64,000 nt of DNA, from the NCBI RefSeq assembly GCF_003063375.1, contig NZ_NERY01000002.1:62001-126000 (forward strand), in the 5' to 3' direction. The notes beneath the pieces are model-generated. The model had not been told where the DNA came from and made no database searches. It saw only the letters and a list, made by a program, of their open reading frames with translations. Within the stretch, counting starts at the first letter, position 1, and every line of letters begins with the position of its first letter. Below are positions 9,309 to 38,784 of the stretch, one piece after another. This DNA is from Limnohabitans sp. MMS-10A-178 (GTDB lineage Bacteria > Pseudomonadota > Gammaproteobacteria > Burkholderiales > Burkholderiaceae_C). The position numbers and the translations under genes are program-made.

Positions 9309-9384
9309 TGGCTCCTCGACCTGGGCTCGAACCAGGGACCTACGGATTAACAGTCCGGCGCTCTACCGACTGAGCTATCGAGGA
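9309..9384 (-). tRNA. tRNA-Asn (anticodon GTT), intact, with encoded CCA
   Basis: A 76-nt cloverleaf. Acceptor TCCTCGA pairs with TCGAGGA, with discriminator G and an encoded CCA. The D-arm is AGCTCAGTCGGTAGAGC, the anticodon loop CTGTTAA reads GTT, and the T-arm contains GGTTCGAGCC. It is the insertion site of both islands: its 5' 41 nucleotides recur at 30631-30671 and 38633-38673. The present 5' half and promoter therefore seem to have come with island 1, while the 3' half is original. Confidence 0.97.
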
Positions 9385-9467
9385 ATATTCGGTTTGTTAG
9401 CAGAAAAGTACACAGAAATTCAGAGTCTTTAGGACTTAGAGCGTCTGTGAAATTCGCTAAGCCTCGC

Positions 9468-9496
9468 ATTGTAGCAAAAAAAATGCAGCTTTTCGA
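9468..9496 (-). promoter_or_regulatory. Promoter driving the reconstituted tRNA-Asn (island-borne copy)
   Basis: On the minus strand TCGAAA (9491-9496) and TACAAT (9468-9473) are 17 bp apart, followed by a GC-rich discriminator. An 83-nt leader leads to the tRNA. The same promoter with the same -35 recurs at 30755-30783, while the copy at 38755-38784 has a different -35 (TTGAAT, 18-bp spacer). Sharing between copies 1 and 2 marks these two as element-borne. Confidence 0.7.
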
Positions 9497-9624
9497 GAGC
9501 TAATCGGATTTGTTGGCACAGGGTTGTTGAAGCGTGGTTTCACTCTGGAAAACATGCCTCGGGGGATCGATTTGCATTGAGCTTTTAGCAAGCAAAAACA
9601 CAACGCAAATAGAACCAAGCAGGG

Positions 9625-9764
9625 CGTCCAGAATCTGGACAGTCGATGTGCTCTGGCCGATATCAGAGCGTCCAGACTCTGGACGCTTGGTTTGCTCTGG
9701 ACGGTACGTGTGCTCTGGACGCTTGGTTACTCTGGACAGGTGGGGGGTGTCCAGAGTCTGGACG
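9625..9764. repeat. Motif array A (TCTGGACG / CGTCCAGA), left end of island 1
   Basis: Ten 8-bp motifs (six exact, four with one mismatch) begin at 9625, 9634, 9652, 9669, 9678, 9696, 9714, 9731, 9748 and 9757. Spacing is 9, 18, 17, 9, 18, 18, 17, 17, 9 bp. Pairs 9 bp apart form a palindrome with a 1-bp centre. The array sits about 240 bp inside the tRNA half, at the same place as array E in island 2. Confidence 0.85.
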
Positions 9765-9877
9765 GTTCGAGTTGATTGCATTAATGTCTTGCTTAGGATT
9801 GAATCGAATAGCTTTCGATTAGCAAAGAGACTATGCTGACGATCCGTAAGCAACCCGTTCACTTTCAAGGGAGTTAT

Positions 9878-10030
9878 ATGACTCTTTGCCCAATTGCCTT
9901 AATGGCTACTTGCAACAAATGTCCTGCTGTAGGCATTTGTCCTCTGAAAGAAGTGCTGGGCGATCACAAGCCAGAGAACCCTGCGTCAGCTGCAAATGAT
10001 GCGTCTATAAAAGATAAAACATCAAACTGA
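9878..10030 (+). CDS. Small cysteine-rich protein of unknown function (50 aa)
   Basis: I choose the ATG at 9878 because AAGGGAG lies 4 bp upstream; an in-frame ATG at 9833 is the alternative. The 50-aa product has four cysteines in its first 24 residues (MTLCPIALMATCNKCPAVGICP), which suggests a metal or redox site, and a polar tail. There is no signal peptide. It is convergent with the uspA-type gene, and both are part of the island core near the left end. No function is recognised. Confidence 0.6.
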   Translation: MTLCPIALMATCNKCPAVGICPLKEVLGDHKPENPASAANDASIKDKTSN

Positions 10031-10055
10031 CAGGGTAGATAACTCGTCATCATTC

Positions 10056-10493
10056 TTATTTGATGATGACCACCAAAACACTGCAAGGCGAGTGCTCAAT
10101 CAAAGCCTTGGGAGTAGAGCTACGCCACCAACGTTCTAGCCAATTGCCATGACGCTTGTGACCTAGCATGATCAAGTCAGCTTCAATGCTAGTTGCGTAT
10201 TTCACGATTTGATCTACCGCATCGCCTTTCAGCAATTCACCAATTGCTTCCAATCCAGCTTCGTTTAGTTGCGCAACGCCTTCATTGAGCGTTTTTCGGC
10301 GACGAAGTTCCTCTACCTGATTTTGTTGCTCGGTGTAGTAAGAAGTCTCGTGACCAATTGGAATCGTGTCGTAGGGAACCACAGACAGTAGATGGACCTT
10401 GGCATGCTCCCATTGCGAGATGTCTTTGCAATTTAGAAGCGCCTGCTGACTTTCAAGAGATCCGTCATAGGCCAGAATGATTTTTTGATACAT
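10056..10493 (-). CDS. Universal stress protein, UspA family
   Basis: Single-domain USP of 145 aa. It begins MYQKIILAYDGSLESQQALL (Asp of the nucleotide-binding site) and ends in the family motif LIMLGHKRHG...(S)TPKALIEHSPCSVLVV. The ATG at 10493 has AAGGAG 7 bp upstream; a longer in-frame start would overlap the next gene. USPs bind ATP and act in stress tolerance. It sits downstream of the small AraC-type gene with a short gap, possibly one operon. Confidence 0.88.
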   Translation of the reverse strand: MYQKIILAYDGSLESQQALLNCKDISQWEHAKVHLLSVVPYDTIPIGHETSYYTEQQNQVEELRRRKTLNEGVAQLNEAGLEAIGELLKGDAVDQIVKYATSIEADLIMLGHKRHGNWLERWWRSSTPKALIEHSPCSVLVVIIK

Positions 10494-10555
10494 CTGCTTC
10501 TCCTTGATCAATCTCAGTTGTGCATGAGTTGGGTTAAACGGTCGCTGTAATTGAC

Positions 10556-10831
10556 TCAATTTTTGATTTTCTCGAAGAGATCAGGCTGTAAGTTGATTGT
10601 TAGATTATTTTTATGCTGTTGCCTGACATGTCTAATGAAGGCCATTGGAGTTACTTGTTTGTACAGTTGAAATAGTTCAACTAGCTGCTCTTTAGAAAAT
10701 CCACTTTTATTGGTCAATTGAGTCCAGCCCAGAGTTTGATCAAAGTTTTCAGTAATCCAGACACATAACTCCTCCAGCCTCTTGGCATTAGAAGCACTTA
10801 GCGGAGATCGCTTTTTCGTTGTGGAGCGCAT
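10556..10831 (-). CDS. Half-size AraC-type helix-turn-helix protein (91 aa)
   Basis: Only the first half of an AraC/XylS DNA-binding domain is present: LEELCVWITENFDQTLGWTQLTNKSGFSKEQLVELFQLY with the linker VTPMAFIRHVRQQ. The second HTH and any effector domain are absent, compared with about 100 aa for a full AraC DNA-binding domain. It may be a stand-alone small regulator or a truncated remnant. Upstream of uspA on the same strand, in the island core. Confidence 0.6.
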   Translation of the reverse strand: MRSTTKKRSPLSASNAKRLEELCVWITENFDQTLGWTQLTNKSGFSKEQLVELFQLYKQVTPMAFIRHVRQQHKNNLTINLQPDLFEKIKN

Positions 10832-11002
10832 GCGTTTCTCTAGTGATCGGTCTATTTGTAGTGTTTCAATTCCAATATGTGGATGGGGGAGTTATATATT
10901 TCCTTTTGTCTTCTTACAAGCTTATTTTGGCATTCTCACAATTTTGTACGCGCACTTCATAACGCACTTTGACGTATCTCGCCCACAAGGGAGCGCAGCT
11001 GC
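10832..11002. other. Intergenic stretch left of array B
   Basis: 170 bp without a gene between the AraC-type gene and motif array B. AT-rich. I recognise nothing specific. Confidence 0.4.
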
Positions 11003-11133
11003 TCTGGACGGTCCAAGTGCTCGGTACGGTTATGGGGTGTCCAGAATCTGGACGCTTAGGGTGCTCTGGCCGGTATCAAAGCGTCCAGACTCTGGACGCT
11101 TGGTTTGCTCTGGACGGTTGTGGGGTGTCCAGA
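11003..11133. repeat. Motif array B (TCTGGACG / CGTCCAGA), inside island 1
   Basis: Eight motifs start at 11003, 11038, 11047, 11065, 11082, 11091, 11109 and 11126. From 11038 on the spacing is 9, 18, 17, 9, 18, 17, that is, a 44-bp unit present twice. It lies exactly between the stress-type core and the catabolic cargo. The 300 bp that follow to the gntR stop hold no gene I can recognise. Confidence 0.85.
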
Positions 11134-11430
11134 GTGAATCAGTCTGATCGCTGCGCATGAGATGCAGGGAGTAAGACGCTATTCCAGGAATTTATTAAAT
11201 TTTGATCCACCACTTTGGTACGGTATGTATGACCTAGGTCAGTTAAATCTGCACCCCAAGAATCAGTCTCTTACCTGACTTACGCAGAACTTAGGCGCTC
11301 TTACTAATTTGCAATTTGAAACGACAGTGATCTTCGCCTACGAAATTGAGTATGAGCCTACTGAGAGACGCCAGCCTGTGCAAAAATATAGAACTGGTCT
11401 TTATTAAAACCTTTGCTTTGCCGGCGTTCG

Positions 11431-12141
11431 TTATTTCAGAATTCCTCGCTGTTTGATTATCGTAAGCGCTAGCTGGATGTGCTGCGCAAGCAATTTCTCG
11501 GCCTTGACGATGTCGCGACTCATAGCGGCCTCAAATATCTGGCGGTGCTCTTCGTGTACCTGTGTCGGGACAATTGAGCTAACGGCTGATAGGCGACGAT
11601 AGCGGCGAGCCTGTCTGTAAAGAATGACGCGAAAGCGCTGGATCCAAGTTGACGGGGATGCAGAAGTAAGAGCTTCGTGAAAGGCGCGATTGCGCTCTTC
11701 CCATTCGTCGAAAACATTAGCCGCATCTTTGGCTAGTCTTACCTCGGTACGCGAAAGCTTGTGATAAGCGCTAACTACGCGGGCCTCCCATTCATCGTCA
11801 CCAAGTTGCATCGAGTCGCGAAACGCGGCGCATTCCAAGACTGTGCGGGTACGCGTGAGGTCTTCAATATCGGCCAGCGACATGGGTGCAACACGAAAGC
11901 CCCTCTGTGACTGCGACACTACAAGTGAGTCGGATACAAGCAGGGCCAACGCTTCACGCAAAGTGCCCGCGCCAACATTATATTGGTCCTTGAGGTGCTC
12001 CACCCGAAGTCGCTCGCCTGGAGCGTGGCGGCCTTCAATGATGGCTTCACGTAGCTGTAGATAAGCGGATTCAATCTGTGACCGCGGCTCGGAGCTGCTA
12101 TCCAGTTCTGCCCAAAAGAAGTTGTTTTGACTTTCCATCAC
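11431..12141 (-). CDS. GntR-family transcriptional regulator (FadR/FCD subfamily)
   Basis: 236 aa. The N-terminal winged helix (LREAIIEGRHAPGERLRVEHLKDQYNVGAGTLREALALLVSDSLV) is followed by an all-helical FCD ligand domain with the metal-site pattern (D..E..N..FHEAL and H..I..A). FCD regulators commonly sense carboxylic acids. It is divergent from the hydrolase-transporter-dioxygenase operon, so it is the likely local regulator, with the aromatic acid or a ring-cleavage product as effector (inference). Confidence 0.88.
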   Translation of the reverse strand: MMESQNNFFWAELDSSSEPRSQIESAYLQLREAIIEGRHAPGERLRVEHLKDQYNVGAGTLREALALLVSDSLVVSQSQRGFRVAPMSLADIEDLTRTRTVLECAAFRDSMQLGDDEWEARVVSAYHKLSRTEVRLAKDAANVFDEWEERNRAFHEALTSASPSTWIQRFRVILYRQARRYRRLSAVSSIVPTQVHEEHRQIFEAAMSRDIVKAEKLLAQHIQLALTIIKQRGILK

Positions 12142-12155
12142 TGCATTGTAGTAGA

Positions 12156-12174
12156 GAGATAATCAATAAATCTC
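12156..12174. promoter_or_regulatory. Candidate GntR operator in the divergent promoter region
   Basis: An inverted repeat GAGAT-N9-ATCTC lies 15 bp upstream of the gntR start in the 109-bp divergent region. The position suits an autoregulatory operator, but the arms are short and no second copy was found, so this is tentative. Confidence 0.3.
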
Positions 12175-12250
12175 GATATTTATCCGCGTTAGTACCTATT
12201 TTATAAATTTTTGATTAATTTAATATTCTCAAAATTATAGAAAAATATAT

Positions 12251-13099
12251 ATGATTACATCGCAAGAAATTGGGAAATCAATCGTCGCAGCTGGTACAAA
12301 AACGAATTACCACGACATGGGTAGTGGCTCGCCAGTAGTATTGATCCATGGATCCGGGCCTGGAGTAAGCGCTTGGGCCAACTGGCGCCTGGCAATCCCA
12401 GAACTTGCCAAGGGACGCAGGGTGTTGGCACTCGACATGGCAGGATTTGGATACAGCGAGAGTTTTGAAAACGGCGCTTACAGCATGGATGCTTGGGTGA
12501 GACAGGCCATCGGTTTTTTGGATGCGTTAAACATCAAACAGGCAGACCTTGTTGGCAACTCTTTCGGTGGAGCCATATCCCTAGCGCTGGCCATCAGGCA
12601 ACCGCAGCGCGTGCGTCGACTTGTCCTTATGGGCGCGGCAGGCTTGAAGTTCGAGCTCACGCCCGCCCTAGATGCCGTTTGGGGCTACACGCCCTCCGTT
12701 GAGAACATGAGTGACATCATGGGCACATTCGCCTATGACACTTCACTTCTTACAGACAGTTTGGCTCGCATGCGCTATGAAGCAAGCGCACGTCCTGGAG
12801 TGCAGGAGGCCTACTCCGCCATGTTTCCGGCACCACGCCAGCGGTGGGTCGACGCTCTTTCAAGCTCAGAGGACCAAATCGCTGCCCTTACTCATCAGAC
12901 TTTGGTGATCCATGGTCGCGAGGATCGTGTTCTGCCATTAGCCACTTCGTTGCGACTTGCGGAACTAATTCCGCGCGCGCAACTGCATGTTTTTGGCCAG
13001 TGTGGCCACTGGACCCAGATAGAGCATGCAGGCCGATTCCATCGGCTGGTCGAAGATTTCTTGGCTGAAGCCGACGCAGTGACTCACATTCTCAATTAA
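12251..13099 (+). CDS. Meta-cleavage product hydrolase (2-hydroxy-6-oxo-dienoate hydrolase, alpha/beta fold)
   Basis: Carbon-carbon bond hydrolase of 282 aa, related to TodF/CmtE/BphD/DmpD. The oxyanion loop is HGSGPG (33-38), the nucleophile is in GNSFGG (Ser104), and the acid and base are about Asp225 (HGREDRVLP) and His253 (GQCGHWTQIE). It splits the ring-cleavage product into 2-hydroxypenta-2,4-dienoate and an acid. No Shine-Dalgarno is visible; an AT-rich -10-like element lies only about a dozen bases before the ATG, so the leader may be very short. First gene of the large plus-strand operon. Confidence 0.88.
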   Translation: MITSQEIGKSIVAAGTKTNYHDMGSGSPVVLIHGSGPGVSAWANWRLAIPELAKGRRVLALDMAGFGYSESFENGAYSMDAWVRQAIGFLDALNIKQADLVGNSFGGAISLALAIRQPQRVRRLVLMGAAGLKFELTPALDAVWGYTPSVENMSDIMGTFAYDTSLLTDSLARMRYEASARPGVQEAYSAMFPAPRQRWVDALSSSEDQIAALTHQTLVIHGREDRVLPLATSLRLAELIPRAQLHVFGQCGHWTQIEHAGRFHRLVEDFLAEADAVTHILN

Positions 13100-13116
13100 C
13101 ACCAACAGGAGACAAT

Positions 13117-14304
13117 ATGAAGCAAACCTTACTCGCTATCAACATCGCCGCCGCATTTTTCCTACCAAACGCCGCTAGCGCTCAGGCCAAGGATCTTAAG
13201 ATCGCCATGCTTTTGCCCACTTCCGCAGTGTTTGCTCTTTATGGAGAGGCCATCATGGAAGGCTTCAATCTTGCACTTGAGGAAGCTGGCGGTCAGGCCG
13301 CAGGCCGTAAAGTCGTTCTTCTAAGCGAAGATAACAAGGAGGATCCAAAGACCTCCCTGAGTCTGGTACGCAAGTACGTGAAAGACGATAACGTCGACTT
13401 CGTAGTTGGCCCGATCGCATCCCACGTGGTCGCGGCGATTCGGGACGACATACACCGCAGTAAGACTTTTCTGATTGTTCCCAACGCGGGCAACAATGAA
13501 GTGACTGGAAAGTCTTGCAGCCCTTACATAATCCGCACATCATTTTCTAACTGGCAAATAAATTACCCGATGGGCCTGTTTGCCGCCGAAACGCTTGGCA
13601 AGTCGGCGCTGACGGTCGGATCCAACTATGACGCCGGTCGGGAGATGGCAGGTGCTTTTGCTCAGGGCTTCCAAGAAAAGGGCGGCAAGGCGCCGGTTGA
13701 AGAATGGCCTGCTCTTGGAACCTCAGACTTTGCGCCAACCATAACCAATGTACGGTCCAAGACAACGAGTCTTGAAACATTGTGGTTCTTTATCCCCGGC
13801 ACTGGCGGCCCGCGCTTTGTCAACCAAGTCCAGCAATCGGGCCTTCGCAGCGGAAAGATGAAGGTTACCGGGCCGGTGTTTATGGCAGACGAGATGTTCT
13901 GGGGAGCAATGGGTGATTCAGCGCTTGGTGTCCTTGGCAGCGGTCACTATGTGGCCAGCATAGACACTGCACGCAACAACGCGTTCCAACTTGCTTTCCG
14001 CAAAAAGTACAACAAGGTTGCCCACGTGATTCACGTTCAAGGCTACGACACAGCCAAGCTAATACTGGCTTCAGTCGAAGCAATGAAGGGTAACTTGACG
14101 GACAAAGTAGCCGTTCGCGAGGCGCTTACCTCTGTGCAGATCGACAGCCCGCGCGGACGTGTAAGCATAGACGCGCGTACAGGCAACGTGGTGCAAAACG
14201 TTTACATCACGGAGGTGGTCAAGAAAGCGGACGGCAGCATGGCGCACAAGGTACTGAAGACCTACGAACAAGTCCGCGATCCGGGCCAGGGATGCGCGTT
14301 GTAA
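13117..14304 (+). CDS. Liv-type ABC transporter periplasmic binding protein
   Basis: 395 aa with a signal peptide ending at about ASAQA. It is a type I periplasmic-binding fold of the branched-chain amino acid/amide class (IAMLLPTSAVFALYGEAIMEGFNLALEEAGGQAAGRKV). Many relatives in catabolic clusters bind aromatic acids rather than amino acids. It begins a five-gene transporter (SBP-H-M-G-F) inside the aromatic operon, so I infer it captures the pathway substrate. Ribosome site AGGAGA precedes the ATG. Confidence 0.85.
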   Translation: MKQTLLAINIAAAFFLPNAASAQAKDLKIAMLLPTSAVFALYGEAIMEGFNLALEEAGGQAAGRKVVLLSEDNKEDPKTSLSLVRKYVKDDNVDFVVGPIASHVVAAIRDDIHRSKTFLIVPNAGNNEVTGKSCSPYIIRTSFSNWQINYPMGLFAAETLGKSALTVGSNYDAGREMAGAFAQGFQEKGGKAPVEEWPALGTSDFAPTITNVRSKTTSLETLWFFIPGTGGPRFVNQVQQSGLRSGKMKVTGPVFMADEMFWGAMGDSALGVLGSGHYVASIDTARNNAFQLAFRKKYNKVAHVIHVQGYDTAKLILASVEAMKGNLTDKVAVREALTSVQIDSPRGRVSIDARTGNVVQNVYITEVVKKADGSMAHKVLKTYEQVRDPGQGCAL

Positions 14305-14318
14305 CGCACAGGTTTTCT

Positions 14319-15185
14319 ATGAACATAATCGCAGAGCAGATACTAAACGCCCTGCAAATGGGGGTGCTGCTGTTCCTGATTTCCTCAGGACTGTCATTGA
14401 TTTTCGGCCTGATGCATGTCGTGAATCTCGCACACGGAGCGCTGTACATGGCGGGAGCATATTTCGCGCTCACCGCAGCGCGGCTCACCGACAGCTTCTT
14501 TCTGGCGCTGGTGCTTGCACCTCTCATGACAGCAGTGCTCGGCGCCATACTCGAGCGGTTGCTACTACGGCGTACTTATGGCCAGGGAATGCACCCGCAG
14601 GTGCTTCTGACTTTTGGGCTAGTTTTCTGTTTTGACGAACTGGTCCGCATCTTGTGGAGCTCGCAAATCCAGATAATCGAATTGCCTCCCTCGCTGGCCG
14701 GCACCCTATCCATAGGCGATATACAGGTGCCGACATACCGTGCGTTCGTAGTTGTTGTCGGAGTATTCGTCGTCGGAGCATTGCTACTGCTGTTCAATCG
14801 CACGCACCTTGGCGCCCAAGTGCGTGGCAGCGTCGACGACCGTGAGATGGCCGCAGCGTTGGGAATCGACGTGAAGCGTCTCTTTACCTTTATGTTCTCG
14901 CTCGGGGCTGCGCTTGCTGGCCTTGGAGGCGCGCTGGCTGTGCCACTCTTTACCGCCTATCCCGGCATGGGCAGCGAGATCCTTATCTCGGCATTAGTAG
15001 TCGTGGTTGTGGGTGGCATGGGTTCGCTAGTCGGATCACTACTTGCCAGCCTTCTGGTTTCCTTCGCGATCGTTTTTGGCCAGGTCGTGCTTGCCGAGTT
15101 CGCAACGGCCATGATCTATGTCGTACTGATCCTTTTTATGCTTTTCCGGCCACAGGGCCTGATGGGCGTAGCGAGGCCAACGTGA
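14319..15185 (+). CDS. Liv-type ABC transporter permease (LivH family)
   Basis: 288-aa inner-membrane permease with the family start QMGVLLFLISSGLSLIFGLMHVVNLAHGALYMAGAY and the C-terminal VVVVGGMGSLVGSLLASLLV. The ATG at 14319 lies 14 bp after the binding-protein stop; the frame remains open further upstream but would overlap that gene. It overlaps the next permease by 4 bp (GTGA). Confidence 0.9.
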   Translation: MNIIAEQILNALQMGVLLFLISSGLSLIFGLMHVVNLAHGALYMAGAYFALTAARLTDSFFLALVLAPLMTAVLGAILERLLLRRTYGQGMHPQVLLTFGLVFCFDELVRILWSSQIQIIELPPSLAGTLSIGDIQVPTYRAFVVVVGVFVVGALLLLFNRTHLGAQVRGSVDDREMAAALGIDVKRLFTFMFSLGAALAGLGGALAVPLFTAYPGMGSEILISALVVVVVGGMGSLVGSLLASLLVSFAIVFGQVVLAEFATAMIYVVLILFMLFRPQGLMGVARPT

Positions 15186-16165
15186 ATCGGTACTTGTTTT
15201 ACATCTTTGCACTGCTTGTTCTTGCTTTACCGCATGTAACTCGTGGCACGCAGACCGAGTTCGCAATTGAGCTGATTCTCACGGGCATCTTCGCTCTGAG
15301 CTTGAACATCCTGATCGGTCGCCTAGGTCTCATCAGTTTCGGCCATGGAATGTTTTTTGGTGTCGGTGCATATCTTGCTGCTTTTCAACTACGTTACATG
15401 ACCGACAATCTTTTCCTACTTCTAATCGTAGCAGTGCTGGTCGGAGCACTAATCGCTTTGCTGGTCGGAGCGCTCGTACTTAGATTGGGCGGCGTTGGAT
15501 TTGTCATGATCACAATTGCAATGTGCCAGTTGGTGTACGTTCTTATTCTTTCGACTCAAACCTTGTCCGGTGGCATCAACGGCCTGACTTCGATACCGCG
15601 TCCGACCTTTTGGAAAGATGCTCCATCCCTGTTGTCCCTAGACACCGGGGCAACCTTCTTTTACGTTGCGCTGGCTTGCTTAGTGAGTTTTATCTGGCTA
15701 CTCAAGAGGCTGGACGCATCGGAGATGGGCGCTGTTTTCGAGGGTATTCGCCAGAATCCTGCTCGTATGCTCGCGCTAGGCTACCCCGTTCGTGCCTTTC
15801 AACTTGCCGGATTCGTCATGGCTGGATCCGCGGCAGCCGTCGCCGGCGCACTTCATGCTTCGCTATTTGGTTTCGTCGATCCTACTGTATTCTTTTGGAC
15901 TACGTCCGGTGAGGTGATCCTGATGGTTATCTTGGGCGGTGCGACTGCTTTATATGGGCCGCTGGTTGGCGCAGCAATTTTTCTATCGCTTTTTCACTAC
16001 CTAAGCGGGCTCACCGACCATTGGCGCCTAGTACTGGGACTGGTGTTCGTTGGGGTCGTGCTCTACGCTCCGCGAGGCCTAGTTCCTTTGTTAGCTGATT
16101 CGCGGACACGCTGGCTAGAACGCCGCGCAAGCGTGTCAAAAATTCAATCTGGGGTGAAGTCATGA
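15182..16165 (+). CDS. Liv-type ABC transporter permease (LivM family)
   Basis: 327-aa inner-membrane permease starting with GTG. The typical LivM motif is ALSLNILIGRLGLISFGHGMFFGVGAYLAA, and the later EAA-like loop is AVFEGIRQNPARMLALGYPV. It is translationally coupled to the genes on both sides (4-bp overlaps). Forms the membrane channel with the LivH-type partner. Confidence 0.9.
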   Translation: MNRYLFYIFALLVLALPHVTRGTQTEFAIELILTGIFALSLNILIGRLGLISFGHGMFFGVGAYLAAFQLRYMTDNLFLLLIVAVLVGALIALLVGALVLRLGGVGFVMITIAMCQLVYVLILSTQTLSGGINGLTSIPRPTFWKDAPSLLSLDTGATFFYVALACLVSFIWLLKRLDASEMGAVFEGIRQNPARMLALGYPVRAFQLAGFVMAGSAAAVAGALHASLFGFVDPTVFFWTTSGEVILMVILGGATALYGPLVGAAIFLSLFHYLSGLTDHWRLVLGLVFVGVVLYAPRGLVPLLADSRTRWLERRASVSKIQSGVKS

Positions 16166-16920
16166 GCCCTGTGCTGCAAACCAACGGGCTCACTTTGCGC
16201 TACGGTCGTTTCATGGCCATCGATAACGTGTCCATCACCCTGCATCAAGGGCGCCGCTACGGAGTGCTTGGTCCGAACGGTGCTGGTAAGACCTCACTGC
16301 TTAACCTTCTTTCAGGTACTGCGCGGGCCTCTGCCGGCAGCATACTGCTGGACGGCATCGACATTACCGCGCAAGGCCCGGCCGAGCGCCGGCGTGCCGG
16401 GCTGGGTCGCAGCTTCCAGAAGACCAGCGTCTTCATGGAGTTGACCGTGCTTGACAACCTTCGCCTGGCGGCTCAGTCCTATCGGGGCTGGCGGCTTTTC
16501 GATCCATGGACCCCCCGCCTGCGCGACCGGGAAGGTATGAGCCGCGTCATTGAATTTGCAGAGCAGGTTGGACTTCAGGCGCGGCTCGATACCTGCGCAG
16601 CCGAACTGTCATATGGAGAACTGCGGCAGCTTGAGGTGGGTCTTGCTTTAGCCACCGAGCCTCGGGTACTTCTTCTTGACGAGCCGACGGCCGGCATGAG
16701 CGAGGAAGAGACACACGCCATAGTCGGGATGCTGCAGCGCAAACTACCATCTTCCCTCACGCTGCTAGTCATTGAGCACGACCTAAGGGTGATCGAGGGT
16801 TTGACAGACCATGTATTCGTGTTGGAGAGTGGTGCTTTGTTTGAGCAGGGTACCCCGGCTGAGATCCGCGCGAGTGAGCGCGTGCAGCAAGCCTATTTTA
16901 AGGGGCCGGCGCATGCTTGA
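16162..16920 (+). CDS. Liv-type ABC transporter ATP-binding protein (LivG family)
   Basis: 252 aa. Walker A is GPNGAGKTS (about 36-44), with the LivG-specific FQKTSVF stretch, a signature written LSYGELRQLEV (Y in place of the second G) and Walker B LLLDEPTAGMS. LivG-type proteins often carry this SYGxxR variant. Start ATGA overlap with the permease; the end overlaps the LivF-type gene. Confidence 0.92.
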   Translation: MSPVLQTNGLTLRYGRFMAIDNVSITLHQGRRYGVLGPNGAGKTSLLNLLSGTARASAGSILLDGIDITAQGPAERRRAGLGRSFQKTSVFMELTVLDNLRLAAQSYRGWRLFDPWTPRLRDREGMSRVIEFAEQVGLQARLDTCAAELSYGELRQLEVGLALATEPRVLLLDEPTAGMSEEETHAIVGMLQRKLPSSLTLLVIEHDLRVIEGLTDHVFVLESGALFEQGTPAEIRASERVQQAYFKGPAHA

Positions 16921-30624: not shown

Positions 30625-30630
30625 TATTGT

Positions 30631-30671: not shown

Positions 30672-30754
30672 ATATTCGGTTTGTTAGCTTAAAAGTACAC
30701 AGAAATTCAGAGTGTTTAAGACTTAGAGCGTCTGTGAAATTCGCTAAGCCTCGC

Positions 30755-30783
30755 ATTGTAGCAAAAAAAATGCAGCTTTTCGA
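30755..30783 (-). promoter_or_regulatory. tRNA-type promoter copy at the island junction
   Basis: TCGAAA (30778-30783), 17 bp, TACAAT (30755-30760) on the minus strand, identical in layout to 9468-9496. It now drives only a truncated tRNA half and should be stopped by the terminator at 30591-30624. Confidence 0.65.
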
Positions 30784-30910
30784 GTGCTCTAGGGTTTTGT
30801 TAGCCAGGGGTTATTTAGGCTCGGTTTCACTCGGGAAACATGCCTCGGGGGAAACATTTGCTTTGATCATTTTGTAAGCTAAAACACAACGCAATTAGAA
30901 CCAAGCAGAG

Positions 30911-31174: not shown

Positions 31175-31257
31175 GTTAGTGCAAGTTTGAAGGTAAAGAT
31201 TAGTTCAATTCCTGATCTCGGATAAATAACTGACTGCTGCTGAAATCCTAATAGCAA

Positions 31258-31731: not shown

Positions 31732-31947
31732 TTGCTTACTCTTTCAAATCTAATCTTGGCATTCCCCAGTGTAGATTTACAACTACTGAAGTCTGGGGTG
31801 TGGAGTGCGAGATCCCAAACTTTGCTTCTGCACTACTTTCACACTCGGAATCAGCATCTCGATCGAGGTGCGCCCATATCAACTCCTGATGTGTCTCCAA
31901 AAGACTGGAATTAGCCTGCATGAAGCCATCAATCTAAGATTGCATCA
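31732..31947. other. Junction between AT-rich element core and GC-rich cargo, with a possible IS-end relic
   Basis: About 215 bp without a clear gene. At 31757-31774 the sequence TGGCATTCCCCAGTGTAGA resembles the left end of the IS3 element at 7798 (first 11 bases identical). Base composition rises sharply just after it. This could be the scar of the event that brought in the lyase-amidase cargo. Confidence 0.45.
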
Positions 31948-33486
31948 ATGGATACCTCGATCCCGCTCCAAAACCAGTCGTCCCGCGCATCTACACCGCG
32001 GGCGAGCGGCAGGCTCGTACAGTCGGCGCTTGATGAAGTCTGTTCGATCATCTACTCGCAGCGTTTCGTCGACGTACCTGCGGCGTTGGACCACCTGCAC
32101 CAGCTGAACGCTGCGCACCTGCTGATGTTGCATACCACCGGGATCATCGACGAAACAGCGGCTAGGGCTTTGGCGGCCGAACTCTTGGCCATTCGCGAGT
32201 CAGGTTCTTCGTCAATCCCGATGGACGCGAGCAAGGAAGACGTATATTTCAATTTCGAGGCTCACCTAATCGCACGGGTGGGCGAGCTCGTTGGTGGCAA
32301 ACTGCACACGGCGCGAAGCCGCAACGAAATGATGGCGACAGCCGAGCGATTGGCGGCCCGAGAAAGCCTTCTGCAGCTGATCGACACTATGCTCGGCATG
32401 CTCGACACCTTGCTCGAACAGGCGCAGCGCCATGCCTCCACGGTGATGCCGGGCTACACGCACCTCCAGCCGGCGCAGCCAATGACCTACGGCTTCTACC
32501 TCCATGCTCTGGCCAGCGCGTTCCTGCGAGACATTGATCGCCTGATGGCATGCTATCCGCGCGTCAATCAGTGTCCGATGGGTGGCGGGGCCTTTGCGGG
32601 AGTGACGTTTCCCATCGATCGGCAGGCTACTGCGAAGCTCCTGGGCTTTGATCTTGTGATGAACAACACCCTGGATGCCATCGCGTCGCGAGACTTCTCG
32701 TTGGAGATCCTCGCGGCCTTGCACATTTTTTCCCTGACAAGTAGCCGGGTCGCGCAGGACTACTACATCTGGGGCTCACAGGAATTCGGGTTCTTCGACT
32801 TTCCCGACTCGATTGCCAGCACTTCGAGCATCATGCCGCAGAAGAAGAACCCGGTGGTGCTCGAGTACCTCAAGGGCAGAGCCGGACACGCGATGGGCGC
32901 TCTCTTCAACGCGTCTGCCGCCATCAAGGGCAGCGGCTTCAGTCATGCAGGCGATGCCAATCGCGAGAGCCTAACGGGGTTTAAGGCCTGCGTCAAAGAA
33001 TGCGTGGACGCCGCACAGCTGCTTCGGCTGATCTTTGAGCACGCGGCGCCGAAAGCTGTGTTCATGAGGCAACGGGCCGAAGAGAACTTCTGCTGCGTCA
33101 CCGACGTGGCTGACTTGCTCGTACGCGACGCCGGACTGTCCTTTCGGCAGGCACACCATGTCGTGGGGCAAGTCGTTCGAAAGGCCATCGAACGGGGTTT
33201 GACAGCTACAGGCATTACCTCCGACATGGTGATGCAGGCCGGCTTAGAAGTCCTCGGTCATCCCCTGATTATCAAAGGCAGCAGTCTGGAAGAAGCGCTG
33301 AACCCGGATAACTGCGTTAGGGCGAGGCCCCAAGGTGGGCCCGATCCTGACACGACACGAGCCTCAATCGCATCGCTTCAACAAAGGACTCACCAGCTCA
33401 AACAGGAGACCATCGCTTGGGCCTGCAAGCTGGACAAAGCGAACAGTGCAGCAGAGCACCGGCTACGCCAACTGGCGAGCGTATGA
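31948..33486 (+). CDS. Argininosuccinate lyase-family (fumarase/aspartase superfamily) enzyme
   Basis: 512 aa. Superfamily signatures: HTARSRNEMMATAERL, MPGYTHLQPAQPMTYG (His of the active site), and TSSIMPQKKNPVVLEYLKGRAG (catalytic Ser loop). Argininosuccinate lyases are about 460 aa; the extra length is mainly at the N-terminus. There is no arginine gene nearby; the next genes are a Bug receptor, an amidase and LysR. I therefore infer a catabolic lyase that splits an N-substituted aspartate or similar substrate into fumarate plus amine, not arginine synthesis. Confidence 0.8.
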   Translation: MDTSIPLQNQSSRASTPRASGRLVQSALDEVCSIIYSQRFVDVPAALDHLHQLNAAHLLMLHTTGIIDETAARALAAELLAIRESGSSSIPMDASKEDVYFNFEAHLIARVGELVGGKLHTARSRNEMMATAERLAARESLLQLIDTMLGMLDTLLEQAQRHASTVMPGYTHLQPAQPMTYGFYLHALASAFLRDIDRLMACYPRVNQCPMGGGAFAGVTFPIDRQATAKLLGFDLVMNNTLDAIASRDFSLEILAALHIFSLTSSRVAQDYYIWGSQEFGFFDFPDSIASTSSIMPQKKNPVVLEYLKGRAGHAMGALFNASAAIKGSGFSHAGDANRESLTGFKACVKECVDAAQLLRLIFEHAAPKAVFMRQRAEENFCCVTDVADLLVRDAGLSFRQAHHVVGQVVRKAIERGLTATGITSDMVMQAGLEVLGHPLIIKGSSLEEALNPDNCVRARPQGGPDPDTTRASIASLQQRTHQLKQETIAWACKLDKANSAAEHRLRQLASV

Positions 33487-33607
33487 GACTCAAGTACCAA
33501 AGGCACTACTTACAGATTCTGCGCAAATCGCAGGACCTGAACACCGAAGATCAGCTCGAACGATCGGCTCAGTATCCCACCCTCCCTCGTCACTTTGAAA
33601 GGTTGTC

Positions 33608-34600
33608 ATGAATCATATCGAAATGCGTCGCAATTTGCTCAGCATCGTGCTGGTTGCCGGGGCCGCAGCGGCATGCCCCGCGCTGGCCCAGCCATTACAG
33701 GCATCGGACTTCCCAAGCCGCGCCATCACAATCGTGGTTCCCTACCCCGCTGGAGGGGGAACCGACCGCATCGCCAGGCTGCTTGCGCAAGAGCTGGGCA
33801 AATCCCTGAATCAGACTGTCATCGTAGATAACAAGGCCGGGGGCGGCGGCGTGATCGGTACCAGCTTCGTGGCCAGGGCGCAACCCGACGGCTACACGTT
33901 GATGGTGACGGCCTCCGCGCACGCGGTTAACCCAGGGCTACGGGACGACTTGCCTTACTCAGTGAAGACGTCCTTCACCAACGTGGCCCTCATGGCCGAC
34001 GAGCCCGGCGTTCTTTTGACACCGCTGGACAGGCCTTTCAAGAGCCTGCAGGACGTGATCAACGCGGCCAAACGCAGTCCGGGTAAGCTCAGCTATGGCT
34101 CCACCGGCATCGGCACCACAACGCACCTAACGGGCGAATTATTCAAGAGCATGGCGCAGGTCGACATTCTTCACGTGCCTTACAAGGGCGGCTCGCCGCA
34201 GATGGCGGATGTCGTCGGCGGCCAGATAGATCTCGCGTTCGCCACCACGGGAACAGCGGGCGCCATGATCAAAGGAGGCAAGGTTCGTGCTCTGGCCGTC
34301 ACGACCCAGCAGCGCGTGCCCACGCTTCCTGACTTGCCGACCTTCGACGAAGCGGGCGTGAAGGGCTACTCGGCAGCCCTGTGGTACGGCGTCTTCGGGC
34401 CTGCCGGCCTGCCACCGGCGGTCGTCGCCAAGCTCAATGCGGCGATCGTCAAAGCGATGCACTCGGATGCTGTCAAAAAGCCGCTTGAAGATTTCGGTTT
34501 CACTGTGCGCACCCAAGGTGCAGCGGAGTTCGACCGCTATGTTAACGATGAAGTCGAGCGCTGGGGGAAGATCATCAAGGCGAACAACATCAAGCCGTAA
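33608..34600 (+). CDS. Bug/TctC-family periplasmic solute-binding protein
   Basis: 330 aa with a signal peptide ending near ALAQP. Family motifs: FPSRAITIVVPYPAGGGTDRIARLLAQ, VDNKAGGGGVIGT, YGSTGIGTTTHLTGELFK and ILHVPYKGGSPQMADVVGGQIDLAF. Receptor of a tripartite tricarboxylate-type transporter binding carboxylates or amides. No membrane partners are in the island, as is common for Bug proteins, which share chromosomal TctAB. 120 bp after the lyase. Confidence 0.9.
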   Translation: MNHIEMRRNLLSIVLVAGAAAACPALAQPLQASDFPSRAITIVVPYPAGGGTDRIARLLAQELGKSLNQTVIVDNKAGGGGVIGTSFVARAQPDGYTLMVTASAHAVNPGLRDDLPYSVKTSFTNVALMADEPGVLLTPLDRPFKSLQDVINAAKRSPGKLSYGSTGIGTTTHLTGELFKSMAQVDILHVPYKGGSPQMADVVGGQIDLAFATTGTAGAMIKGGKVRALAVTTQQRVPTLPDLPTFDEAGVKGYSAALWYGVFGPAGLPPAVVAKLNAAIVKAMHSDAVKKPLEDFGFTVRTQGAAEFDRYVNDEVERWGKIIKANNIKP

Positions 34601-34603
34601 ACG

Positions 34604-36076
34604 ATGACGCAGACACCGGCCGGGCTTGTCATCCCGGAGGATCCGTTCGGCGATGGACTGCATCGGTTCGGCGACCGCTTGCGCGTGGGGCAGGTCTCGA
34701 TTCACGGGGCTCTGTCGGCCTGCTTGGCGCGCGCCGCACTCCTGAATCCGACGCTCGGCGCTTACGTTCAGGTTCTCTCTAGCAGCGCTCTGGCCCAGGC
34801 TAGCCATCTGGACAGCCTCCTGCAACAGCGCATCGACCTGGGCCCGCTGATGGGCGTGCCGGTCGCTGTGAAGGAGAACTTTTACGTCAACGGAGCCGAC
34901 TGCCGTGGCGGCACGCCGGTGGACGTCTCCGACATACTCGCGTTCGAAGGAGAGTTCATCGCAGCGTTGCGGCGCGCGGGGGCAATCGTCATCGGCATCA
35001 CCGCCATGTGCGAACTGGCCATGGGCGGGGTCGGCATCAACCTGTTCCGGGGCACGACCCGCAACCCGTGGGACAGCCGAGTCGCGCGGGCCTGTGGTGG
35101 GTCGTCCAACGGGTCGGCCGCAGCGGTGGCTGCCGGGCTGTGCGGGTTCGCTGTGGGCACCGACACCGGCGGATCGGTGAGGTCACCCGCGGCGTTTACA
35201 GGCGTGGTCGGCTACAAGCCGACGCAATCGCTGTGGAGCCGCGATGGTGTGCTGCCTTTGTCGGAATCGTTCGACGCCATTGGCACACTGGCGCGGTCCG
35301 TTGAAGATACACGGCTCATCTGCTCTGTACTTGCGACCGCTGTGGTTTCACCTGTTTGGACCTCTGCCCGATGGCGGATCGGGTATGCGTTCGATGAATT
35401 CGAGAGGTGTGCCCCTCAGGTGCGTCAGGCCATCGACCGGGCGACGGTGCAGCTAAGGCGTCTTGGGGCCGAGTTCGTACCCCTGTCGATGCCTCCCGCA
35501 CCTTCGGTGGACGCGTTCTACGAGCATCGCCTACGACGCGAGTTCTTTTCGGTTTACGGACAGGGCCGCTTCGACATCGAGCCCAGGCTTGCCAATCCTG
35601 ACGTTGCTGGCAGAATCGCCCGCATGCGACAGGAAAACAATATCGAGCCGGGCCACGAATCTCTTGACACGATGAGCATAGCGGAATCAATATTTAGCCA
35701 ATGCGATGTGCTGATGCAGCCGACAAAGTTTCATCTTGCCCCGACTTTGCCCCAACGTGGCGATGCGCAGGCACTGCTCAACACCGCCGAGCTGTGCAAG
35801 GGTCCTACGCGGCTGGCGAACGTGCTCGGACTATGTGCCATCAGTTTGCCGGTGCTCGAGCCAGCGTCCGGGCTTCCCGTTGGTTTGCAGTTTTCATGCG
35901 CGCCGGGCAATGACGACAGACTACTGGACTTTGCCGGCCACGCAGAGTCTGCGATCGGTGTAATGGCCGCTGCGCCTGTGGGTCAATTCCTGCGAGCTGC
36001 GCAGGTTGGGGTGACACGTCGCTGGCAAGGCCCCGACCCGACCCATCGCACCAGCGAGGAAGGTTATGCCCACTGA
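34604..36076 (+). CDS. Amidase signature-family hydrolase
   Basis: 490 aa. The catalytic Ser-cisSer-Lys triad is visible: Lys90 in PVAVKENF, cis-Ser167 in CGGSSNGSAAAVAAG and nucleophile Ser191 in GTDTGGSVRSPAAFTG. It hydrolyses an amide or related C-N bond to release ammonia or an amine. Starts 3 bp after the Bug gene and overlaps LysR by 11 bp, so the four genes look like one unit. Substrate unknown; it could act before or after the lyase. Confidence 0.88.
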   Translation: MTQTPAGLVIPEDPFGDGLHRFGDRLRVGQVSIHGALSACLARAALLNPTLGAYVQVLSSSALAQASHLDSLLQQRIDLGPLMGVPVAVKENFYVNGADCRGGTPVDVSDILAFEGEFIAALRRAGAIVIGITAMCELAMGGVGINLFRGTTRNPWDSRVARACGGSSNGSAAAVAAGLCGFAVGTDTGGSVRSPAAFTGVVGYKPTQSLWSRDGVLPLSESFDAIGTLARSVEDTRLICSVLATAVVSPVWTSARWRIGYAFDEFERCAPQVRQAIDRATVQLRRLGAEFVPLSMPPAPSVDAFYEHRLRREFFSVYGQGRFDIEPRLANPDVAGRIARMRQENNIEPGHESLDTMSIAESIFSQCDVLMQPTKFHLAPTLPQRGDAQALLNTAELCKGPTRLANVLGLCAISLPVLEPASGLPVGLQFSCAPGNDDRLLDFAGHAESAIGVMAAAPVGQFLRAAQVGVTRRWQGPDPTHRTSEEGYAH

Positions 36077-37031
36077 ACTGCCAACCGTCGGCGCCGAGAT
36101 GCTGTTTAACGAGATTCGGGCCTTTCGCGCCGTCATTCGGACGGGCTCGATGACCCGCGCGGCAGCCACGCTGCACATGTCGCAGCCCAACATCAGCCGA
36201 CTTGTATCACGCCTGGAAAACAAGACCGGGCTGGCCCTGTTCACCCGTCTCCCCGGCAAGCTGGTGCCGACCTTGGAAGCGCACGTGCTGTTCCAGGATG
36301 TGGAGCGGCTGTTCGTCGGGCTGGAGGGGTTGGAGCTTTCGGTGGAAAACATCCGTAAGTTCGGTAATGGCCGGCTGCGCATCGCGAGCGTGCCTTCGTT
36401 GTCTTACAGCCTGCTGCCCAAGACGATCGCCCGCTTCAACGCGCTGACACCGGATGTGCCGATCTCAGTACACACCGATAGCACCTCCATGGTGATGCAG
36501 TGGGTGGGATCGCGCTTCTGCGACTTCGGCCTGGTGTCTTATCTGGACGACGCAGCCATCTTGACGCAACCGACCGACGTCATGGTGGAACGCACGTTCA
36601 ACCTCGAGGCCGCTTGCATCCTGCCGGCCGATCATCCATTGCGGCACAAAACGGTCATCCGAGCTGAAATGCTGACTGGGATGAGCTTTGTCTCGATGGC
36701 GTCCTCGGATCCGTTGCGGGCGAAAGTGGATCAGGCCTTTCAACCCAACGATAAACGCAGGCTGCTTTATGACACGCCGCATGCGGTCACGATCTGTCGG
36801 ATGGTCGGGCTGGGGCTGGGCGTAAGCATCGTCAATCCGCTAGTGGCTATCGCGGCCGATCACACCGGCTTGTGCATCAGGCGCTTCGAGCCATCCATCG
36901 TCTTCGCCAGCCACGTGGTCGCTCCCCGGCACCGCCCCGAAAGCAGACTGGTGACGCGCTTCTTGGGCGTTATGGACGAAGTTCTGGCCGAGGATCTCGC
37001 CGCAGTCAATGCGGTAATGGCGACTGCCTGA
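36066..37031 (+). CDS. LysR-family transcriptional regulator
   Basis: 321 aa. N-terminal winged helix (EIRAFRAVIRTGSMTRAAATLHMSQPNISRLVSRLENKTGLALFTRLPGKLVPT) and a periplasmic-binding-like effector domain (LRIASVPSLSYSLLPKTIARF). GAGGAAGG precedes the ATG. Unusually for LysR, it is co-directional at the end of the operon and not divergent from it. It probably controls the lyase-Bug-amidase genes in response to their substrate. Confidence 0.9.
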   Translation: MPTELPTVGAEMLFNEIRAFRAVIRTGSMTRAAATLHMSQPNISRLVSRLENKTGLALFTRLPGKLVPTLEAHVLFQDVERLFVGLEGLELSVENIRKFGNGRLRIASVPSLSYSLLPKTIARFNALTPDVPISVHTDSTSMVMQWVGSRFCDFGLVSYLDDAAILTQPTDVMVERTFNLEAACILPADHPLRHKTVIRAEMLTGMSFVSMASSDPLRAKVDQAFQPNDKRRLLYDTPHAVTICRMVGLGLGVSIVNPLVAIAADHTGLCIRRFEPSIVFASHVVAPRHRPESRLVTRFLGVMDEVLAEDLAAVNAVMATA

Positions 37032-37111
37032 GGCAAGTGGTCTTAGAGGCGATGCCTTGCCCGAAGCTGCCAGGGTCGTGAACTGCGCTTCATTGGCGTA
37101 TCCGTGATTAA

Positions 37112-37131
37112 GGCACGAGATAGCCCGTGCC
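37112..37131 (-). terminator. Hairpin downstream of integrase 2 (left edge of the right-end module)
   Basis: Same GGCACG/CGTGCC hairpin as at 29108-29127. It lies between the convergent lysR and integrase 2 genes, with TTT following on the plus strand, so it may end both transcripts. Confidence 0.55.
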
Positions 37132-37148
37132 TTTGGATGTCTTGAAAA

Positions 37149-38189
37149 TTAGACCTCTATTTTTTGAATGACCTGTAGCTTTTGCTCGAGCGTGTAGCCA
37201 ACACTGCCGTAAACCGCGAAGTCAGTTTGCCCGCGACCATGCCCAGTGATGCTTTCCGCCAATGGCAATGGAATGTCATTTCGCGCTTTGAGTCTGTCGA
37301 TGAATGCATGCCTAAACATGTGACTGCGAAACTCAAAGGGCCGCAGGTTCTTGTTCAAAATAGCTGAACAAGAGCAAGCTCCAAACTCCTTCGCGTATTG
37401 GGGCAGTAGCCAGGGAGAGTTGAGATGTAAAGCTCTAGCTTGTAACTCTTTAGCTGCATCCAGTGATACGCCAACTAGTGGCACAGCTCTAATGCTGGCT
37501 TTGGTTTTGCGATCTGTCAGTCGGTTCTTTCGTACCCAAAGATGCGGAATCTCATGTTCAAGCACCAAGTCTTCAAGCCTTGCCAGAGTTGGCTCTGAAA
37601 TCCGTAACCCAGTATTGAGTTGTATCAGTCCCACCAAGCTGGCAGGTGTGTTGTGACAGATCAAGAAGCTTTTGACCTTGGCAATCTTCTCTGGCGTAAT
37701 GGGTGGTATTGGCCTTGTGTTTTCTCCCTCACCACGTATCTGCAAGCCTCTGAAGGGGCTAAGCCTGTCAATGTCCAAGTGTTTGAATGCCATATTGATC
37801 ATGGCATTCAAGATGTTGTTGTGTTTGCGGACGCTGTTTGGATGCAGTCCCTGCGCCAGCATGGCGTCTCGATATTGGGTGATATGCCAGTGCTTTAGCT
37901 CATCAAGGTATAGGTCCCCATACATGGCGCTAAACCTGTTGAAGTATTGATTGGCATTGAGTTTGAACTTTCTGCGATGCGCGGATGTGTTCTCTGCCAT
38001 GTAGATGTCAAAAGCGTCCGAGAGAGTGGGGCGGTCATTTGCATCTACTTGTCTCAAATGTTTAATCAGTAGTTCTTTAACGAAGTCTTCGTCAACATCG
38101 ATACCGCCAACTGAAATACGCTTTTTGATGTGCGTGCTCAGAAAGGTGCTTTGAGCAATTTGGATTTCATGTGTCATGTGTTTGTTCAA
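37149..38189 (-). CDS. Tyrosine-family site-specific integrase of island 2
   Basis: 346 aa, nearly identical to integrase 1; the 9 changes are conservative or away from the catalytic motifs. The NTGLRISEP, HMFRHAFIDRL and GHGRG motifs are all kept, so both enzymes should be active. It lies about 440 bp from the native tRNA-Asn half. The 1.5-kb modules containing the two integrases are direct repeats about 8 kb apart, so homologous recombination could delete or swap island 2. Confidence 0.92.
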   Translation of the reverse strand: MNKHMTHEIQIAQSTFLSTHIKKRISVGGIDVDEDFVKELLIKHLRQVDANDRPTLSDAFDIYMAENTSAHRRKFKLNANQYFNRFSAMYGDLYLDELKHWHITQYRDAMLAQGLHPNSVRKHNNILNAMINMAFKHLDIDRLSPFRGLQIRGEGENTRPIPPITPEKIAKVKSFLICHNTPASLVGLIQLNTGLRISEPTLARLEDLVLEHEIPHLWVRKNRLTDRKTKASIRAVPLVGVSLDAAKELQARALHLNSPWLLPQYAKEFGACSCSAILNKNLRPFEFRSHMFRHAFIDRLKARNDIPLPLAESITGHGRGQTDFAVYGSVGYTLEQKLQVIQKIEV

Positions 38190-38317
38190 AAGTTGCTGAG
38201 CCTAAGCATTCGCAGCAATGAGTTCTTGTGACACAAATTTAGTTTCAGACCGCAGGCTTGGGCAACCGAGATTTGGTGACCCGATGCATTGGAAGGACTT
38301 GAACGGGACAGTGCAGG

Positions 38318-38489
38318 TGTCCAGAGCTGGACGGTAGTGGGGCGTCCAGAGTACTAGCTGTTATTAATATTAATCTTCTGATGGATTAAATTCCTGCATA
38401 TTAATTTCAATTTAAAAATATCATATTAATTGATATTTTTGAATTAATTGAATAATCAATTTTTATTATTAAAAATCAAAGCGTCCAGA
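38318..38489. repeat. Motif cluster F, upstream of integrase 2
   Basis: TGTCCAGA (38318), GCTGGACG (38326), CGTCCAGA (38343) and CGTCCAGA (38482), matching cluster D position by position. Where D has the degenerate TGTCCAAA, F has an exact motif. The AT-rich tract between the third and fourth copies is also conserved. Confidence 0.75.
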
Positions 38490-38593
38490 GTAAATTAATG
38501 ATTAACTTGAGAGGCCTGTAAATAAAACTGTGCAATATATGTGTAATTGACAAAAAGCCTCAATCTCATAACATAACTTGTTGTTTTTAAACG

Positions 38594-38626
38594 AAAAAAG
38601 CCTCTTCAAAAATCTTGAAAAGGCTT
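38594..38626 (-). terminator. Boundary terminator of island 2, facing the native tRNA promoter
   Basis: On the minus strand AAGCCTTTTCAA pairs with TTGAAGAGGCTT (12 bp, 5-nt loop; plus-strand 38598-38626) and is followed by a T tract. It begins only 7 bp inside the island edge at 38632 and lies directly downstream of the displaced tRNA half. It should prevent read-through from the tRNA promoter towards the island. Confidence 0.8.
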
Positions 38627-38632
38627 TATTGT

Positions 38633-38673
38633 GGATTAACAGTCCGGCGCTCTACCGACTGAGCTATCGAGGA
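38633..38673 (-). pseudogene. tRNA-Asn 5' half (original chromosomal copy, displaced)
   Basis: 41 bp identical to the tRNA-Asn 5' half. The leader after it shares only the first 18 bases and the promoter core with the other two copies, which resemble each other closely. This copy is therefore most likely the host's own 5' half, cut off from the 3' half by about 29 kb of inserted DNA. Confidence 0.88.
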
Positions 38674-38754
38674 ATATTCGGTTTGTTAGCTAAAAATACA
38701 CAAAATTGAGAAGTCTTTAAGACTAAGCAACTGTGCTGTTCAGCTAAGCCTCGC

Positions 38755-38784
38755 ATTGTAGCAAAAAAAATTGTGACTATTCAA
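38755..38784 (-). promoter_or_regulatory. Original tRNA-Asn promoter, now orphaned
   Basis: TTGAAT (38779-38784), 18 bp, TACAAT (38755-38760) on the minus strand, then GCGAGG discriminator. The -10 and discriminator match the other two copies; the -35 and most of the leader do not. It should still initiate transcription of the truncated tRNA half. Confidence 0.65.

Follow-up and report, generated by a model that had tools for sequence, protein, structure and literature searches.

The stretch analysed here (the window) comprises 64,000 nucleotides from the freshwater bacterium Limnohabitans sp. MMS-10A-178, positions 62,001 to 126,000 of contig NZ_NERY01000002.1 (C2) in the 2.89-Mb, five-contig genome G000, and carries two tandem islands on the 5′ side of a whole tRNA-Asn gene. 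ARAGORN finds a single tRNA in the window, tRNA-Asn(GTT) on the minus strand at 9309-9384, and the genome has one full-length match to it. The 41-bp pattern of its 5′ half matches exactly three times, always on the + strand of the window (9344-9384, 30631-30671 and 38633-38673) and never on the opposite strand. Only copy 1 belongs to a whole gene; beyond the anticodon core, copies 2 and 3 run into island sequence. All three copies are identical over 58 bp, from the core through the 5′ half into 17 nt of leader; between copies 2 and 3 the identity extends by another 20 bp to the left and by one base to the right. In the island-end sequence past the leader, copies 1 and 2 are alike (89% over 276 nt), and copy 3 is alike in the leader part only. 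This pattern is not due to chance, because of the length of the repeat and the integrase gene beside each distal copy. An extended −10 box TGCTACAAT lies upstream of each copy, accompanied by the −35 box TCGAAA with a 17-nt spacer in copies 1 and 2 and TTGAAT with an 18-nt spacer in copy 3; all of these boxes are matches to the consensus only. A preliminary description of the stretch had already named the three direct copies, the joining of only the first to a 3′ half, a TACAAT-type promoter at each copy and a −35 box common to copies 1 and 2 but different in copy 3, and all of this was borne out.

The copies delimit islands of 21.3 kb (copies 1 and 2) and 8.0 kb (copies 2 and 3; Table 1). Each has a tyrosine integrase gene adjoining its distal 5′ half. 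The R, K, HxxR, H and Y positions, which we take to be the motif of tyrosine recombinases, are all present in P0001, the integrase of island 1. Both P0001 and P0002, the integrase of island 2, are whole, and the attachment-site copies lie outside both genes, an arrangement other than the split integrase of archaeal pTN3-like elements. With displaced 5′ fragments upstream of a whole gene in the same orientation, the islands belong to the 5′-fragment class of tRNA islands. The cargo of both is predicted to be catabolic: island 1 encodes Rieske dioxygenase subunits, a short-chain dehydrogenase/reductase, a hydratase-like protein, an amidohydrolase, LigB-type proteins, a branched-chain-type ABC transporter and a major facilitator superfamily (MFS) transporter as well as a transposase, and island 2 a lyase, a TctC receptor, an amidase and a LysR regulator. 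Transfer or virion genes were not recognised among the island proteins scanned, several shorter open reading frames lying outside that scan. Solved structures gave no sequence match at E 0.01, and a pattern for the attachment end of another element had no match in the window.

Table 1. Features of the tRNA-Asn locus and its flanks (positions in the window)
Feature	Position	Strand	Remarks
Probable 3′-side island, right part of C2:60593-71308, bounded by a 3′ half	1..9308	.	no tyrosine integrase recognised
Whole tRNA-Asn(GTT), the only one	9309..9384	-	9309-9343 is the chromosomal 3′ half; one full-length genome match
Copy 1: 5′ half, leader and promoter supplied by island 1	9344..9496	-	-10 box 9473-9468; -35 box 9496-9491
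Anticodon loop CTGTTAA, presumed crossover region	9347..9353	-	counted from gene start; copy 1 ceases to match copies 2 and 3 at 9344
Island 1, aromatic-catabolism cargo, about 21.3 kb	9354..30640	.	limits: copies 1 and 2
Integrase P0001 of island 1, 346 aa, tyrosine recombinase	29145..30185	-	Pfam Phage_integrase, 2.9e-07
Arm-like repeat pair, island 1	30526..30544	-	starts 89 nt past loop
Terminator-like hairpin after displaced copy 2	30599..30621	-	z -0.57 over 68 nt
Copy 2: displaced 5′ half with island 2 leader and promoter	30631..30783	-	-10 box 30760-30755; -35 box 30783-30778
Equivalents of CTGTTAA in copies 2 and 3	30634-30640, 38636-38642	-	same loop as copy 1
Island 2, about 8.0 kb	30641..38642	.	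limits: copies 2 and 3
Integrase P0002 of island 2, 346 aa	37149..38189	-	98% identical to P0001
Arm-like repeat pair, island 2	38529..38547	-	starts 88 nt past loop
Terminator-like hairpin after displaced copy 3	38597..38627	-	z -2.50
Copy 3: displaced 5′ half with host-side leader	38633..38784	-	-10 box 38760-38755; -35 box 38784-38779; flank synteny
VF530 gene, host flank	38852..39139	-	Pfam VF530, 2.1e-32; same place in G002, G011, G030
TonB receptor gene, host flank	42892..45021	-	synteny with intact loci

The leaders in the clade of the window are too alike to mark the native copy, and synteny was therefore used. In genomes G002 and G011 the VF530 and TonB receptor genes lead directly into an intact tRNA-Asn gene; in G030 one additional gene lies between, and in G041 an MFS gene separates the TonB receptor gene from tRNA-Asn, with no sign of a VF530 gene at the locus. 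Copy 3 is assigned to the host flank because the genes to its right lead into the intact tRNA-Asn of relatives. The replacement itself is seen by comparing empty with filled sites in relatives. In the filled genome G068 the displaced leader is 91% identical to that of the empty site in G041 over 160 nt; over the same length the working leader has 75% identity to G041 and 96% to copy 1 of the window. In G038 the displaced leader is 92.5% identical to that of the empty site in G010 over 400 nt and the working leader 51%; the insert of 709 bp, in which no integrase is recognisable, is to judge from its sequence a decayed element. The preliminary description had taken copy 3 as native and copies 1 and 2 as element-borne. 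Host-flank synteny and the clean G068/G041 pair uphold this assignment; leader identity within the clade of the window leaves it undecided, and the usual promoter of the genus is of another kind than the leader of copy 3.

The reading that we favour, with a probability of roughly 0.87, is that tyrosine-integrase islands recombine at the anticodon loop of tRNA-Asn and swap in their own promoter and 5′ half, here twice in tandem. The integrase would recombine at the loop, with the crossover placed where the identity between the copies ends. On insertion, the 3′ half loses its link with the host promoter and 5′ half and is joined to the island versions, a structure that the empty and filled sites of relatives show, so that the sole whole tRNA-Asn survives and would be read from an island promoter. 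The cell needs tRNA-Asn, and only one copy is present here. A second island would repeat the swap and leave behind a record of promoters: that of the host at copy 3, that of island 2 at copy 2 and that of island 1, presumably the working one, at copy 1. Two earlier proposals gain support. A crossover in the anticodon region agrees with copy identity that stops at the core, although its exact point is a presumption, and the supply of both 5′ half and promoter by the incoming element agrees with the G068/G041 and G038/G010 pairs, expression from that promoter being likewise presumed.

The leaders were compared across the genus at 70 loci (30 and 40 from two retrievals; six full-length matches are not among them). 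Many of these genomes are drafts, and some labels of metagenome-assembled genomes (Opitutae, Rhodospirillales) may, at a guess, be binning errors. Whole tRNA-Asn genes were present at 65 loci. In 47 of the 65, a TATAAT-like box (up to one mismatch) lies no more than 26 nt from the gene; TTGCTA with a long leader precedes 12, with one more (G074, TTGTTACAAT) added by eye; and 5 of the 65 lie behind another tRNA. The long leader occurs in genomes with 5′-side elements but also without a displaced 5′ half in nine genomes (G002, G011, G030, G033, G041, G070, G074, G078 and G086; draft assemblies may hide some). The promoter is short in G003, where the TonB receptor gene abuts tRNA-Asn. The long leader of copy 3 differs from the usual promoter of the genus; such leaders may have arrived with an older element and then stayed, possibly including that of copy 3 itself. 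An alignment of 23 element-type leaders, from which the host-type displaced copies (L084, L104, G038) and the copies of G008 were excluded, has TTGCTA in 23 of 23, starting 89-94 nt before the gene in 18, 53 nt in 4 and 125 nt in 1. Between the −10 box and the gene, distant elements hardly align.

Elements with the same end structure were found in other genomes, as the preliminary description had led one to expect. The named records with relatives of the integrase belong to Limnohabitans, other Comamonadaceae or other Burkholderiales, and in the latter we found elements of 1.6-1.7 kb that consist of an integrase, a promoter and a half tRNA. Their lengths, obtained by subtraction between displaced half and working gene, are 1,734 bp (L082), 1,577 bp (L083), 1,677 bp (L084), 1,677 bp (inner element of L085) and 1,581 bp (L086), and in all five complete minimal elements an integrase of 346 aa adjoins the displaced half. 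In L083, L086 and L089 the −10 box TATAAT of the tRNA leader encloses the TAA stop of the integrase gene. In record NCJK01000002.1 the displaced halves lie at 287483, 295225 and 297378, with the gene at 299055; the end of a TonB receptor gene and a short promoter lie beside the outermost half, the outermost element retains only an integrase remnant (residues 4-140) and the middle one gave no integrase match. The forms of 1.6-1.7 kb are very small candidates for an integrating element.

Arm-like repeats flank the core at a fixed distance. The pair ATTACAC(A/G)...ATT(A/G)CAC(A/G) starts 88-90 nt past the loop in 17 of 19 rows of 5′-side ends; L070 deviates from the motif and L089:7123 is empty at a contig end. 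Among 11 rows of 3′-side ends, 9 have the same pair 78 nt ahead of the loop (misses: L086:8321, L096). Randomised arms gave 0 of 15,000, the rows with the repeat pair being related and not independent. A downstream pair past the 3′ half was found, among 11 rows, at +88 at C2:60592, at +89 in L091 and further off in L083, and was absent in 8, including L073, which covers only 19 nt; in L085 it lies at +89 past the whole gene. In our reading, these repeats make up a single attachment system. The core is flanked by a repeat on both sides, and a tRNA half could occupy either side. At L092:4605 and L094:144 an upstream arm pair stands 78 nt before CTGTTAAACC with no tRNA half after it; these sites are perhaps the ends of further elements or another target.

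Hairpins after both distal halves, and two 3′-half copies to the left of the window, had not been covered by the preliminary description. The displaced promoter is directed through its half tRNA toward the island integrase, and a terminator at this place would therefore limit transcription of the integrase gene, as do the stem-loops of ICEKp1 (PMC13023037). At copy 3 the hairpin stretch folds better than shuffled sequences (z −2.50). Of 18 non-empty displaced 5′ ends, 8 have a hairpin with T-rich tail that begins 5-12 nt past the loop, namely seven of the eight Limnohabitans ends (exception G038) and L085:3413. In the Limnohabitans elements, a terminator-like hairpin immediately behind the half tRNA probably limits read-through into the integrase gene.

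Displaced halves also occur on the other side of the gene. The 3′-half copies left of the window, C2:1811-1858 and C2:60548-60592, both end at the same core, and the stretch between the second and the whole gene is a probable 3′-side island, in which the protein encoded at window positions 539-1363 matches mad3/mad8 and other defence ATPases in PADLOC (best 7.9e-27, partial). Copies of the 3′ half that end at the core occur in 17 of 90 genus genomes, a count that excludes rows of G003, G031, G049, G076, G084 and G086 (cut, shorter or less alike). Copies of the 5′ half occur in 6 of 90 (G000, G005, G008, G038, G068 and G076); here a row of G003, an intact gene cut by a contig end, was excluded. 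Upstream of displaced 3′ halves, L091-L094 and L096 have integrases 62-64% identical to P0001 and L100 a partial one with 71% identity. In these six distinct records (L016 is the same record as L093) the displaced 3′ half lies downstream of an integrase of this clade in uniform orientation. In a tree of 36 rows, 12 5′-side and 6 3′-side tRNA-Asn rows form one clade (100/100) with three unassigned rows, one of which, L090, has a 5′-side end at a contig edge; tRNA-Lys and other rows fall outside it. The 5′-side rows require two changes on the tree, and a single 5′-side clade, with an AU (approximately unbiased) p of 0.251 in a build from which five rows were excluded beforehand, is neither shown nor rejected. 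The more distant integrases of L017-L028 (53-58%) had no tRNA half nearby in a search that took its queries from 30 of the 37 tRNA hits in the genome. On a neighbouring branch, integrases adjoin tRNA-Lys(TTT) 3′ halves (L097:5691-5735; L101:5780-5824 and 9218-9262), whose ends fall in the same part of the gene as those of tRNA-Asn. A viral contig (L135:1-700) opens with a whole tRNA-Asn behind an island-like leader end, so that the 3′ side of this gene may serve a prophage.

The integrase lineage would not be bound to one side, since close relatives of it adjoin displaced 3′ halves with their ends at the common core, and the side of the attachment site that bears the tRNA sequence would decide which half an island must bring. 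Alternatively, the two sides could be unrelated, with other integrases serving the 3′-side islands, next to whose halves the clade members would be chance neighbours or remnants. The spacing between integrase and 3′ half does vary, from about 0.2 to 3.6 kb, and the 3′-half stretches of G000 show no integrase of the P0001 family. Against unrelated sides stand the single orientation in all six records, the identity of the motif 78 nt before the loop with that 88-90 nt after it and the full support of a clade that spans both sides, and we consider this alternative rather unlikely. The odds are about even, in our view, that one integrase lineage switched the side it displaces (polarity being a flippable feature of its attachment site, attP, and a flip forcing promoter carriage), that element promoters outlive their elements and that integrase and promoter form one unit in the smallest elements.

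Several points weigh against promoter replacement by the islands. Leader identity fails to separate native from island-borne copies in the clade of the window: the G002 leader is 75, 75 and 76% identical to copies 1, 2 and 3 over 160 nt, which makes this empty site indecisive, and leader identity was rejected as a test for the native copy in this clade. No excisionase was recognised among the proteins scanned. No free form appeared in collections of viruses, plasmids or phages: searches of viral contigs with the integrase, a 5′-half pattern and an arm pattern gave no attP, and the only hits among plasmids and phages were integrases of 27-35% identity. The 5′-side elements have no upstream repeat pair up to 600 nt from the copies listed, bar one in the decayed G038 insert that is this element's own downstream arm. 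The 68-nt hairpin stretch at copy 2 folds no better than shuffled sequences (z −0.57), and a strong terminator is absent at 10 of 18 readable displaced 5′ ends, of which four have weaker and more distant hairpins and six none.

Leaders of empty relatives such as G002, which are about as near to copies 1 and 2 as to copy 3, would also suit a history in which copy 1 has the host promoter and islands were added outward at displaced halves with the working gene unchanged. Intact relatives have their host genes beyond copy 3, not copy 1, and in the G068/G041 and G038/G010 pairs the foreign leader is the working one, which contradicts this history and leaves it very improbable. Least probable of all, by a little, are duplications that arose between tRNA fragments through homologous recombination or gene conversion, with no part for the integrase: similar leaders within Limnohabitans make exchange between copies possible, but distant elements with hardly alignable leaders keep the order of parts and the fixed repeat distance, and the integrase adjoins the displaced half in 5 of 5 complete minimal elements.

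Two further observations concern the surroundings of the islands. The palindrome GTCCAGAGTCTGGAC, with at most one mismatch, occurs at 8 places in the genome, all on C2 and mostly near island ends (among them window 9626-9763, 11039-11097 and 30956-31120, and C2:52255); the reversed pattern occurs at none. About 3.8 kb between the VF530 and TonB receptor genes (39084-42907) has no counterpart in G002 and encodes a sulfatase, a TctC receptor and a protein of 440 aa that matches no Pfam family; this stretch may be older cargo.

Islands on the 5′ side of tRNA genes are already known, as a minority, and so is the general kind described here. In the parts of the literature on which we draw, Islander lists a 5′ fragment in 159 of 3,919 islands and an anticodon-centred site in 2,083 (PMC4383910). 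Its 5′-fragment islands resemble those of the window in the integrase, the admission of tandem members, the displaced upstream 5′ fragment and the anticodon-centred site; unlike here, promoters are not treated in the part of that account covered (PMC4383910). Candidates under 2 kb were rejected there (PMC4383910), and the cut-off would miss the minimal elements. Bacterial tRNA genes rebuilt by integration are described as using their original promoter with very few exceptions (PMC8371274). The archaeal pTN3-like integrases likewise have the tRNA 5′ half as attB, the chromosomal attachment site, and the rebuilt tRNA is expressed from an element promoter, but there integration splits the integrase gene, whose promoter drives the tRNA, whereas here the integrase gene is whole and the tRNA promoter lies at the opposite island end (PMC8371274). 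Islands at dusA, an essential-type target, also replace its 5′ end and bring putative promoter boxes; their target differs in being protein-coding (PMC4482086). In ICEKp1 and its kin at tRNA-asn, the tRNA-Asn promoter likewise points toward the integrase gene and intervening stem-loops limit transcription, but ICEKp1 sits on the 3′ side and the promoter is that of the intact host gene, whereas here it is that of the displaced half (PMC13023037). Phages with tRNA-dependent lysogeny share the short core, the single-copy tRNA gene and an element that compensates for the loss; they carry a whole tRNA gene elsewhere in the phage, whereas here the target gene is rebuilt (PMC10865867). Among titles and abstract openings we recognised no bacterial element of this kind, which is not proof of absence. 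As far as the searches go, three things are new: the resolution of promoter replacement through empty sites, the use of both sides by one integrase clade, and minimal elements whose parts overlap.

The arrangement is the opposite of the usual rule of the original promoter, in tandem, and at the one whole tRNA-Asn gene of the genome. It poses a testable question, that of a mobile element holding an essential gene through ownership of its promoter, so that clean loss would need exact excision. The fixed geometry, with 5′- and 3′-side members mixed in one clade, offers a natural experiment on the polarity of integration. If the wider reading of a side-switching lineage whose promoters outlive its elements is true, a Limnohabitans lineage would express tRNA-Asn from a domesticated mobile promoter, whereas most of the genus keeps the ancestral one.

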